From Actinomycetota bacterium (GTDB lineage: Bacteria > Actinomycetota > Thermoleophilia > Gaiellales > Gaiellaceae): a DNA stretch of 11,216 bases. The translations under genes were made by a program, and so were the position numbers. Every line of letters begins with the position of its first letter. Position 1 is the first letter of the stretch. A model generated the notes under the pieces. It searched no databases and was not told the DNA's origin. It worked only from the letters and a program-made list of their open reading frames with translations. Shown here one piece after another: positions 8,310-11,216 of this stretch. The stretch covers positions 34,535-45,750 of the forward strand of contig PMMN01000048.1 of the NCBI GenBank assembly GCA_003162235.1. The letters are read 5' to 3'.

Positions 8310-8945
8310 CTAATAGCCGAGAAGCTCGCGGGCAACCCGCGCCACCGCTAGCGCCACGGCCCGGTGTCCGCCGGCGTTCAGGTGCACGCCGTCGGCGTCG
8401 TCGTAAACGGTGACCTCGGAGAGATCGAGGAGCGGCACACCCACCTCGGCAGCCGCGACCTGGAAGTAGCGGGAAAGGTCAGCGGCCTTAGCCGCTCCGC
8501 CCGAGAAGGTGTCCGCGAGTGTGCTCGTATCGCCCAGTCGCGGCAGCGAACAGAGAAGCACGGCGGGCGCTTCGTAGCCCGGCCCTGTTTCGCTCCGCAG
8601 CGCAATCTGCGCGAGCAAAGCGGCGCCGCGTGCGATATCGAGCGGCGGCAGCGAGTAGCGGTCGCAGAGGTCGTTCGTGCCCAGGAAGACCACGACCAGG
8701 TCGAGCGGCTGGTGCGACTGCAGGCACGGAAGCAGGTACTCGCGCCCGTTCCGGTACTGCTCGAGCGGGTTGTCGAGCACCGTCGTCCGCCCGCTCAGCC
8801 CCTCCTCGATCACGCGGAATTTGTCGCCGAGCTCGGCCTGCAGGACTCCCGGCCAGCGCACCTCCCAGGGAAAGCGCTCGCCCTCGCTCCCGGGGACGAA
8901 GCCCCAGGTGTTCGAGTCGCCGTAGCAGAGGATCGTCTTCGCCAT
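8310..8945 (-). CDS. SGNH/GDSL-type arylesterase or acyltransferase
   Basis: 211 residues of the SGNH hydrolase fold, acting on ester bonds of small acyl substrates. Block I is GDSNTWG (9-15) with nucleophile Ser11. Block II shows IEEGLSGRT (46-54) with the oxyanion-hole Gly. Block III is LGTND (88-92) with Asn91. Block V is DGVHL (185-189) with the catalytic Asp185 and His188. The DVRW-like EVRW, IEEGLSGRT and LPCLQSHQPLDLVV stretches recall the Mycobacterium smegmatis acetyltransferase/arylesterase (MsAcT). There is no signal peptide, so it is probably cytoplasmic. No Shine-Dalgarno precedes ATG 8943-8945; TATCGT (8962-8957, minus) lies 11 bases upstream as a possible -10. It stands as a single gene. 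Confidence 0.9.
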   Translation of the reverse strand: MAKTILCYGDSNTWGFVPGSEGERFPWEVRWPGVLQAELGDKFRVIEEGLSGRTTVLDNPLEQYRNGREYLLPCLQSHQPLDLVVVFLGTNDLCDRYSLPPLDIARGAALLAQIALRSETGPGYEAPAVLLCSLPRLGDTSTLADTFSGGAAKAADLSRYFQVAAAEVGVPLLDLSEVTVYDDADGVHLNAGGHRAVALAVARVARELLGY

Positions 8946-9141: not shown

Positions 9142-9333
9142 GTGATTCCGCTGCCTGCAGCCGTTTGTCCGCAGCTCGTGGAAGCGCTCATCTCGCTGGG
9201 GGGTAAGCCGCACTCCATTCACGCCGGCTGGTTTCTGATCTCGGTCGCCAACCTCGTCGTGATCGTGCTCATGATCGTCGCTTTCTTGCTGGCGCTGTTC
9301 CTGCCTTTCCCGCGCGAGCGTGACGACGAATGA
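9142..9333 (+). CDS. Small single-TM protein, first gene of the cytochrome b operon
   Basis: 63 residues with one hydrophobic helix at about 30-54, a short N-terminal part holding Cys9, His24 and His27, and a charged end (FPRERDDE). I do not recognise a family. It starts with GTG and its stop overlaps the start of the cytochrome b gene by ATGA, so it is very likely translated and coupled. Its position suggests a small accessory subunit or assembly factor of the cytochrome b complex. A role in haem binding by its histidines is possible but unsupported. Confidence 0.7.
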   Translation: MIPLPAAVCPQLVEALISLGGKPHSIHAGWFLISVANLVVIVLMIVAFLLALFLPFPRERDDE

Positions 9334-10181
9334 GCGCGCGGCCCGAGCCGCCGAGCTGGACCGGCCGCGTCAGGCATGCCGTTTTTTCGGCGTACCCGCC
9401 CGAACAGCTTCTTCCCGAGCGGCAGCCAGCCTATGTCTCCTCTTGGATCTACGTGTTCGGCGTTCTGACGCTCGCGTCCCTAATCGCCGTTGTCTCTTCC
9501 GGAATCGTGCTGGTGATCTTCGGCCCGGCCTGGTGGCACGTCTCGAGCGTTGGCCACTTCGTCAACAGCCTCCATCTCTGGTCGGCGGAGATGTTCTTCT
9601 TCTTCATGGCCGTGCACCTCTGGGGCAAGTTCTTCATGGCTGCCTGGCGCGGCGGCCGAGCGCTGACGTGGATGGCCGGCTCGATCTGCTTTCTCGCCTC
9701 GATCGCGACCGCCTTCACCGGCTACCTCTCGCAGCAGAACTTCGACTCGGAATGGATCAGCACCCAGGCCAAGGACGGCATCAACGCCACGGGTGCCGGT
9801 GCCTTCTGGAACGTTCTCAACTTCGGCCAGATGCTGATGTGGCACATCGTGCTGCTTCCGCTCATCGTCGCGATCCTGATCGGGCTTCACGTCCTGCTCG
9901 TCAGGCGCCACGGCGTCGTTCCGCCGTTCGCTCCGACCGAGGCTCAACTCGCCAAGGCCGGCCTCAGCCTCACCACCACCGTCACGGCCGCGACGTCTCT
10001 GCTTGTGCCACAAGAACTGACTGAGCCTTCGCCACAAGAGCAACCCTTGCTGCAGGAGCCGCTGGCACAGGAGCCCACGTCGGAGGAGCCGCCGGCACAG
10101 GAGCCGCTGGCACAGGAGCCCACGTCGGAGGAGCCCACGTCGGAGGAGCCGCTGTGGACGCTACCGGAGGACCAGTCATGA
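9330..10181 (+). CDS. Cytochrome b, N-terminal (b6-like) four-helix domain with a repeat tail
   Basis: 283 residues. Four membrane helices at about 38-64, 80-105, 113-133 and 168-191 form the haem-bearing core of a cytochrome b. His82/His96 in the second helix and His172/His187 in the fourth are the two bis-histidine pairs; spacing of 14 and 15 resembles cytochrome b6. RRHGVVPPF (192-200) matches the conserved end of this domain. It differs in the loop after TGY (130-132), which reads LSQQN instead of the common SLPWDQ. Residues 201-230 are a linker, and 232-275 form a Pro/Glu/Gln-rich tail of five-residue repeats. There is no C-terminal PEWY domain. It should transfer electrons across the membrane with quinone, but the exact reaction is unclear. 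ATGA overlaps join it to both neighbours. Confidence 0.88.
   Translation: MSARPEPPSWTGRVRHAVFSAYPPEQLLPERQPAYVSSWIYVFGVLTLASLIAVVSSGIVLVIFGPAWWHVSSVGHFVNSLHLWSAEMFFFFMAVHLWGKFFMAAWRGGRALTWMAGSICFLASIATAFTGYLSQQNFDSEWISTQAKDGINATGAGAFWNVLNFGQMLMWHIVLLPLIVAILIGLHVLLVRRHGVVPPFAPTEAQLAKAGLSLTTTVTAATSLLVPQELTEPSPQEQPLLQEPLAQEPTSEEPPAQEPLAQEPTSEEPTSEEPLWTLPEDQS
10023..10145 (+). repeat. 15-bp tandem repeats coding the tail of cytochrome b
   Basis: Six in-frame 15-bp units fill 10056-10145 in the order A-B-A'-A-B-B, where A is GAGCCGCTGGCACAG (EPLAQ) and B is GAGCCCACGTCGGAG (EPTSE); A' differs from A by one base. Degenerate units precede them (from 10023) and a partial A follows. The copies are almost identical, suggesting recent expansion, and copy number changes would keep the frame. 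Confidence 0.9.
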
Positions 10182-11212
10182 GCGCGACCAGCGCATCCGA
10201 CACCTCCGGGGCCCACCGGGCTCGCCGCTTCAAGACGGACCGTGACGTCGTCGAGTGGCAGGGGGACTACAGGCGCTATGACATCGCGAAAGAGGTCCTC
10301 ATCTCGTTCCTGGTCGTCCTTGTTCTGGTGGTCGCCTGTGCCATCGTGTTCTCATCGCCCGATGACCCTCCAGTGACGGTGAAATCCTGGTCGAACGCCG
10401 CACCGGTGGACTTCGCGCAGACCGCAATGGCCGAGCTCAACGGAACGAGCGGGGTCGCGACTTACGGGCCGCCCTACACGAACACGGCGGGCGCCAGCCA
10501 GAAGCTCGGCCCGATCTCGCTCGAGCACGCTGTGGGAGTCAGGATCCCGATCAACACCGCCCAGGACTTCGTGCTGAAGCCGCTTGCGACACTGCCGAAC
10601 CGCCCAGCTCTTGATGCCGCGCTTGCGGAGTACCAAGGCGCGTCCGCGACACAACGAACGAAGTGGGACGCCGCCTACAAGAGAGTCGTCGCAAACGCGA
10701 CCTTCTCCAGTGGCCAGCTCGTCGTGAAGGGCGGCCCTTACGGCCCGGTTGGCGTTCTCATCGGCAACCTCGAGTCGATGGCACGGACCGGAGCCCTTGA
10801 TGGCGCCCTTCTTGCGACGCCTCAGCTGTACGCGACCAATTACACCAACCCGCTGCTGTTCATCGCGGACGGCATGTATCTGGCCGATCAAGCGAGCCTG
10901 CGTCATCTCCAGGGAAGCCAATGGGGAATGATGAACGAGACCGGGAACTTCCCCGGGCAGGCCTGGCTCTGGCTCTACACCATGTGGTACCAGGTTCCTC
11001 CGATGAACAGCTCCAGCAACGGTGACATCGAGGTGTGGGCGATCATGATGGCGCTCACGTTGCTGCTGGCCCTGGTGCCGTTCATACCGGGCTTGAGGTC
11101 CATCCCGCGGCGGATAGGCATCTATCGCCTCATCTGGCGCCATCACTACCGCTCGCTCGGCCCCGACGTGCTCTCACAGATGCCTCCCGGTCGCACGCCG
11201 TCCCGCCGGTAA
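10178..11212 (+). CDS. Two-TM protein with large extracytoplasmic domain, partner of cytochrome b
   Basis: 344 residues. A basic N-terminal tail (RRFKTDRDVVEWQGDYRRYD) leads to a helix at about 38-59, then some 225 residues predicted to lie outside, a second helix at about 285-303, and a basic cytoplasmic end (GLRSIPRRIGIYRLIWRHHYR). The outer part holds NGTSGVATYGPPY (88-100), GPYGPVGVLIGN (186-197) and GSQWGMMNETGNFPGQAWLWLY (246-267). It has no CxxCH haem site, no Rieske Cys/His motifs and no PEWY. I do not know a named family for it; I believe similar proteins accompany cytochrome b in some actinobacteria. ATG 10178 overlaps the cytochrome b stop (ATGA) and follows GGAGG (10166-10170). 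The earlier GTG 10154 is less likely. Its place after a b6-like domain suggests it replaces or modifies the missing C-terminal subunit. Confidence 0.82.
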   Translation: MSATSASDTSGAHRARRFKTDRDVVEWQGDYRRYDIAKEVLISFLVVLVLVVACAIVFSSPDDPPVTVKSWSNAAPVDFAQTAMAELNGTSGVATYGPPYTNTAGASQKLGPISLEHAVGVRIPINTAQDFVLKPLATLPNRPALDAALAEYQGASATQRTKWDAAYKRVVANATFSSGQLVVKGGPYGPVGVLIGNLESMARTGALDGALLATPQLYATNYTNPLLFIADGMYLADQASLRHLQGSQWGMMNETGNFPGQAWLWLYTMWYQVPPMNSSSNGDIEVWAIMMALTLLLALVPFIPGLRSIPRRIGIYRLIWRHHYRSLGPDVLSQMPPGRTPSRR

Positions 11213-11216
11213 GGTC

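Follow-up and report, generated by a model that had tools for sequence, protein, structure and literature searches.

A cytochrome b kind without a PEWY motif, met through a very probable mis-join of two species' DNA in an actinobacterial genome

The stretch of DNA analysed here, called the window below, comprises 11,216 nucleotides of contig PMMN01000048.1 (C58:34535-45750) in a 1.87-Mb metagenome-assembled genome (MAG) of the Thermoleophilia that is 77% complete (assembly GCA_003162235.1). Towards its right end lie three open reading frames (ORFs) that overlap one another and stand where the initial annotation had placed them. They encode a protein of 63 amino acids (aa; 9142-9333), a cytochrome b of 283 aa (9330-10181) and a protein of 344 aa (10178-11212), which we call the partner. 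The annotation had read them as a split cytochrome b operon of one organism. The features of the region are as follows.

9142..9333, plus strand: one-helix protein of 63 aa, first gene of the operon, host-genus sequence (ORF; tblastn homologues)
9330..10181, plus strand: cytochrome b ORF as printed, 283 aa, very probably a chimera of host (9330-9725) and Acidimicrobiaceae (9726-10181) sequence (PF13631, E 5e-12; mismatch counts)
9573..9617, plus strand: first haem-ligand pair, H82/H96, spacing 14, in host sequence (position; His conservation)
9726..11216, no strand assigned: foreign stretch, matching Acidimicrobiaceae contig L028 (PLIM01000181.1), with NN directly after the window (0 mismatches in 1491 bases)
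9728..9749, plus strand: 22-bp stretch common to the host, L028 and the start of the post-NN fragment, the likely mis-join point (sequence comparison)
9843..9890, plus strand: second haem-ligand pair, H172/H187, spacing 15, in foreign sequence (position; His conservation)
10178..11212, plus strand: 344-aa partner, most likely the C-terminal half of a cytochrome b with an inserted outer domain; foreign (344/344 residues as in L028)
10283..10348, plus strand: helix E, partner residues 36-57 (model, alignment)
10427..10921, plus strand: inserted P-side domain, partner residues 84-248, mostly helical, no cysteine (alignment with residues 303-467 of homologue P0009)
10952..10993, plus strand: ef segment with PGQAW, partner residues 259-272, at the canonical PEWY place (alignment)
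11021..11083, plus strand: helix F, partner residues 282-302 (model, alignment)

Much of what had been read from these ORFs holds. The cytochrome b carries both haem pairs, and its helices are closed by RRHGVVPP. The partner has two transmembrane helices, placed at residues 36-57 and 282-302 by a low-confidence model of this protein alone, with about 225 residues between them, and profile searches assign it to no recognised family. The reported absence of a Rieske protein, a cytochrome c and a PEWY motif agrees with a six-frame motif scan of the window (stretches of at least 60 codons), which found no PEW[YF], P[DEN][WF]Y, CxxCH or Rieske-type motif.

The assignment of the three genes to one organism did not withstand comparison with other genomes. 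Window positions 9726-11216 match L028, a contig of the Acidimicrobiaceae MAG bog_560, with 0 mismatches in 1491 bases, and the partner is identical to the L028 protein in 344 of 344 residues, whereas the preceding positions 9330-9725 differ from L028 at 142 of 396 bases. Residues 1-139 of the window cytochrome b show a single difference from P0153, a homologue of 532 aa in one piece. Residues 134-532 of this same protein are 99.7% identical to the fragment that follows NN just past the window. The post-NN ORF starts in the middle of cytochrome b and has no stop before a second copy of the partner, and its first 22 bp recur at window positions 9728-9749 and in L028. GltD, the one left-flank gene tested, is 95% identical in G003, 83% in G001 of the host genus, and 52% in G051, the genome to which L028 belongs. 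The gene is complete in two host-genus genomes, G001 and G004, and forms a single ORF in both. Taken together, the window's cytochrome b and partner in all likelihood result from a mis-join at the shared 22-bp stretch, which placed 1491 bases of an Acidimicrobiaceae homologue within the host gene; it was presumably the assembler that joined the relative's sequence there. The host MAG, a Thermoleophilia relative, almost certainly has one gene of 532 aa after the 63-aa gene, with the 5' part of the printed ORF and the post-NN piece as its two ends. Because the left flank and the 5' part are host-like and the rest is identical to L028, the printed cytochrome b ORF probably exists in neither organism. 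As a side observation, G003, which by GltD is near the window's MAG, shows only a 26-residue end piece of the gene (G003:C11:3747-3824), possibly another break that assembly made in this gene.

Could the window instead be correct? The host would then carry a tandem pair, a split copy recently transferred from Acidimicrobiaceae beside its own one-piece copy. There is precedent in L026, where split and one-piece copies lie close together, and the family tree shows exchange between groups. Against this, the post-NN copy lacks its first 133 residues and exactly these open the first ORF, NN stands at the join, and the identity of 100% over 1491 bases, silent sites included, ends abruptly inside the shared 22-mer. 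The complementary gene ends together with the other three features led us to put a host tandem duplication aside as highly improbable, in favour of the mis-join.

Several earlier statements change with the mis-join. The split arrangement comes from another organism's contig, and the region past 11212, where more subunits had been thought possible, contains no PEWY gene but the remaining half of the gene that belongs to the host; the only recurrent operon-like neighbour is the 63-aa protein. Repeated QEP/EEP units in the cytochrome b tail (window 9960-10181) belong to the Acidimicrobiaceae split form, since they lie within the foreign stretch and are identical in L028. A caution follows for similar cases: in a scaffolded MAG, what looks like a split operon may be the DNA of two species, connected through a short stretch common to both. 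The gene pair as given is a joining artefact, yet it points to a real and widespread kind of cytochrome b.

To describe this kind, we aligned 176 distinct of 185 rows of one-piece forms, numbered as in P0009, and separately 49 rows of split-type partners; the counts below are of distinct one-piece rows. The N-terminal domain scores over the PF13631 cut-off (E 5e-12 for the window cytochrome b), and the four haem-ligand columns hold His nearly throughout (H90, H104 and H195 in 175/176 each, H180 in 174/176). Glu473, Gly479, Trp482 and Asp502 are invariant. Between helix E and the ef segment lies an insert of 165 columns, 141-170 residues in length, with no cysteine in any row; CxxCH likewise occurs in no row. 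A PEWY-like motif is found in 0 of 176 rows and in 0 of 49 split-type partners, which upholds the suggestion of a non-canonical complex. Lys257 is kept in 163 rows, with Arg in seven long rows, and Glu258 is kept in 169, the other seven, all with Arg, being short rows. These last are L138-L144, from seven G059-family genomes; their divergent protein measures about 466 aa, keeps the haem histidines and has an invariant Glu before PGAWW.

The partner had been called unlike subunit IV. It nevertheless contains the helices E and F of a C-terminal domain or subunit IV, and its Y34-D35 and K38-E39, before and at helix E, align with the Rhodobacter 'YFVIKD' segment. A collinear signal of the partner was obtained by hhalign against 117 canonical proteins (longer than 340 aa, from 120 listed), at 8% identity and E 0.004, while one reversed and five shuffled controls gave E 0.03 or worse. 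With good confidence we therefore identify the partner as the C-terminal domain of a cytochrome b: it supplies helices E and F, and extra sequence is inserted where helix E would otherwise lead on to the ef segment. At the same level of confidence, in the family as a whole helices A-D hold the two b haems and helices E and F follow, with a largely helical P-side insert of about 165 residues and a lost PEWY. As to the earlier suggestion that the partner forms the quinol site, what stands is that a P-side site, if there is any, must be built partly by the partner.

In genomic arrangement the gene is whole in most of the loci fetched. Among 80 loci, the best 80 of 563 confirmed stretches chosen by likeness to the fused query and so not a survey, it is one ORF in 75 and split in five (L011, L019, L028, L029 and L051). 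Split versions do occur in some Acidimicrobiaceae; on one contig (L026:6926-11521) a split copy of 309 + 332 aa lies near a one-piece copy of 544 aa. By tblastn, each of the 10 loci searched has a homologue of the 63-aa protein directly upstream of cytochrome b, with 79% identity over 43 aa in the host genus. It appears as a separate ORF of at least 55 aa in 19 of the 80 loci, the one recurrent operon-like neighbour, and in certain homologues, for example P0200, it forms the N-terminal part of the cytochrome b itself. Among gene clusters within 7 kb in at least 6 of the 80 loci, no Rieske or cytochrome c look-alike was seen by eye. Clusters resembling universal stress proteins (by eye; 19/80 loci, in all orientations) were set aside as unspecific. 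Upstream of the operon in the window, a 211-aa ORF on the minus strand (8310-8945) resembles SGNH/GDSL hydrolases by eye; its adjacency to the operon is not conserved in G001 and G004.

These neighbourhoods bear on the possibility that the protein is a sensor of the quinone pool, or an assembly or anchoring protein, in which the haems are structural and the outer domain is the working part. That domain is large and conserved, no conserved redox partner was seen nearby by eye, and two-component genes lie near some loci. In L134, L135 and L145, for example, the ORFs ahead of the gene resemble, by eye, the remaining genes of a cyo operon, a two-component pair and a gene for a secreted protein. 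However, most carriers examined have no adjacent regulator, and even very divergent members retain all four haem ligands along with the b6-like spacing. We consider such a role the least probable of the functional explanations weighed here.

The family is widespread. Of 7997 candidates scored, 6337 reach E 0.001. Carriers in the Actinomycetota include Acidimicrobiaceae, Acidithrix, Ferrithrix, Acidiferrimicrobium, Streptosporangiaceae, Jatrophihabitans, Trebonia and Thermoleophilia, and others are found among records titled Candidatus Saccharibacteria. In one group of small genomes, the G059 family (0.5-1.5 Mb each), 37 of 79 carry the gene, 29 in a long form (about 590 aa, some fragments) and eight in a divergent form (about 470 aa); we call this group Saccharibacteria-type on the ground that its member G142 shares a protein with L044, which is titled Saccharibacteria. 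In a quick tree of 98 rows, supported by the Shimodaira-Hasegawa-like approximate likelihood ratio test (SH-aLRT) only and with root and direction not tested, the long form falls within a 27-row set (SH-aLRT 99; eight of the set titled just 'bacterium') inside the actinobacterial rows, and the short form is a separate long branch. The nesting of the long-form rows suggests a transfer from Actinomycetota to Saccharibacteria-type bacteria. Actinomycetota are the usual hosts of Saccharibacteria.

What would such a cytochrome b do in these organisms? In canonical complexes the two electrons of a quinol part ways: cytochrome b hands one to a Rieske protein and passes the other to the far side of the membrane. 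For bc complexes it is established that this bifurcation is not to be expected when PEWY and the Rieske protein are both missing. No Rieske gene (PF00355) was detected in any of six host-genus genomes (G000-G005) or of the 37 G059-family carriers. Canonical QcrB over the NF050120 cut-off occurs in 24 of 37 genomes and in 0/6 of the host genus. PF00032 had been tried as the marker for canonical C-terminal domains; it matched 1 of 34 genomes and missed the control, Corynebacterium glutamicum, from which we conclude that it does not see actinobacterial QcrB, and it was replaced by NF050120. Of the terminal oxidases, COX1 is present in 29 of 37 genomes and 0/6 of the host genus, and CydA in 10 of 16 genomes searched and 6/6 of the host genus. 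In the host MAG, CydA (by PF01654) and CydB-like genes lie about 6.6 kb past the cytochrome b fragment (L004:10593-13066), and the COX1 search of the genus yielded no heme-copper oxidase. In the G059 family, COX1 is found in 72 of 79 genomes and is missing in 5 of the 37 carriers, and its co-occurrence with the gene is uninformative since so many genomes have it. Six of the 32 G059-family genomes with both (G078, G115, G129, G135, G136 and G147) hold the gene within 6 kb of COX1, though these six may be close relatives and we attach no probability to the linkage. As a partner, cytochrome c left no CxxCH in the window and no recurrent neighbour seen by eye, whole genomes not having been searched.

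From the fold and this setting, we tentatively propose a stand-alone, Rieske-free, quinone-linked di-haem transmembrane electron carrier, a role that at present falls somewhat short of an even chance. A Qi-like site on the N side, formed by the Lys/Glu pair with which helix E begins, would exchange electrons with the quinone pool, and the two haems would connect it, in one direction or the other, with a P-side site lying under the insert. An insert so placed would leave no room for Rieske docking or for a bifurcated Q-cycle. The protein might thus serve a side branch of the quinol pool where only quinol oxidases are found, cytochrome bd in the host genus and a bo3-like oxidase in Saccharibacteria-type bacteria; the direction we favour is quinol oxidation with a small one-electron acceptor on the P side. 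Possibly, though no more firmly, the outer domain replaces the Rieske head over the P-side site and makes a self-contained quinol-linked carrier of one polypeptide. Its origin would then lie with Actinomycetota of acid habitats and soils, from which it would have reached Saccharibacteria-type bacteria of at most 1.5 Mb, there to work beside the bo3-like oxidase. For the combined explanation, a mis-join in the window and a stand-alone Rieske-free cytochrome b behind it, we estimate a probability of about 0.6.

Several results weigh against this explanation. Taken by itself, the C-terminal half shows only weak similarity to its canonical counterparts (8%, E 0.004, with controls at 0.03 or worse), and hhalign of the partner against eight QcrBs gave no signal. 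PF00032 misses the C-terminal half, and a Pfam search with four C-terminal parts from which the insert had been excised returned no cytochrome family. The partner's own model was poor and matched nothing, and Foldseek with the fused model gave query TM-scores (template modelling scores) of about 0.29-0.36 at a root mean square deviation of about 20-23, with the insert interfering. The divergent short form has lost the Lys/Glu pair (Arg at 258 in 7/7 rows), so that not every member has the Qi-like site. None of the host-genus genomes is complete (77-93%), and the gene is found in only three of the six (G000, G001 and G004). Finally, among 31 other carriers, 27 have Rieske genes, the four without being G053, G055, G058 and G059 (0.6-1.0 Mb), and 24 have canonical QcrB over the cut-off; in carriers having both, the protein may therefore share a Rieske protein or have a Rieske-dependent role.

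The last point leads to the idea of a Rieske/cytochrome b complex in disguise, in which a Rieske protein, its gene lying elsewhere or having diverged beyond detection, docks, the Q-cycle runs, and Glu473 or Gln480 replaces the Glu of PEWY. The Rieske genes elsewhere in those 27 genomes and the invariance of Glu473 in 176 of 176 rows are in its favour. It fits poorly with the six of six host-genus genomes and 37 of 37 G059-family carriers in which no Rieske gene is detectable, and with some 165 residues inserted on the docking side, and we hold it to be improbable. The main rival is flow in the reverse direction: one-electron reductants such as superoxide or Fe(II) would be received on the P side under the insert, and their electrons would reach quinone on the N side by way of the haems. 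A protein of one chain that has two haems and a single apparent site for quinone would suit this, and iron-cycling acidophiles (Acidithrix, Ferrithrix and Acidiferrimicrobium) are among the carriers, for which iron reduction is described (PMC8790237). Yet the insert shows no metal-ligand pattern, having no Cys and a single column with a majority of His, and some carriers are records with no known link to iron metabolism. Reverse flow seems unlikely to us, if less so than the disguised complex, and quinol oxidation by a stand-alone carrier is still preferred.

If the proposal is right, it would add an extra and so far unmentioned branch to the minimal respiratory chain of Saccharibacteria-type bacteria and a component to the thin chains proposed for Saccharibacteria. 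Passages of two reports outline the Saccharibacteria chain as a type II NADH dehydrogenase and a bo3 oxidase and make no mention there of a b6-like cytochrome (PMC6031116, PMC8407418). A description of the family was not found in the open-licence literature, supplementary files being outside the search, and it may be described elsewhere. With haems and fold kept, PEWY lost, and genomes at hand that lack Rieske proteins, what a lone cytochrome b does becomes directly testable.

How does the family compare with known systems? From the cytochrome b of bc1 and bcc complexes (mycobacterial QcrB, 9gy6_B; Rhodobacter) it differs by the lost PEWY-like motif and the insert of about 165 residues after helix E; it also has no transmembrane helix after F in the model and no adjacent Rieske or cytochrome c that we saw. 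Against the actinobacterial QcrB profile (NF050120), the window cytochrome b scores 24.4 bits where the curated cut-off is 500. The best PDB sequence match is to b6f (1q90_B, E 3e-13), and the likeness extends to the helix D histidine spacing of 15 and, in some members, to a split after helix D as between b6 and subunit IV. In contrast to subunit IV, the second gene has an outer domain and no PEWY, and 75 of the 80 fetched loci are fused. The best NCBIfam match of the N-terminal half is ExtP (NF040969), a b-type cytochrome of selenite/tellurite reduction operons, but its 51.1 bits lie far from the curated cut-off of 290 and no such operon was seen here. The b561-type superoxide oxidase CybB of E. 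coli is said to pass superoxide electrons to quinone, as in the reverse-flow rival. Although CybB belongs to another family and has no large outer domain, we take it to be a working analogue that would presumably act alike, being one polypeptide that has two b haems, a single quinone site and a single reactant on the P side. By its fold, then, the family is a cytochrome b, while by motif, and by its partners in two groups of carriers, it stands outside the definition of a Rieske/cytochrome b complex.
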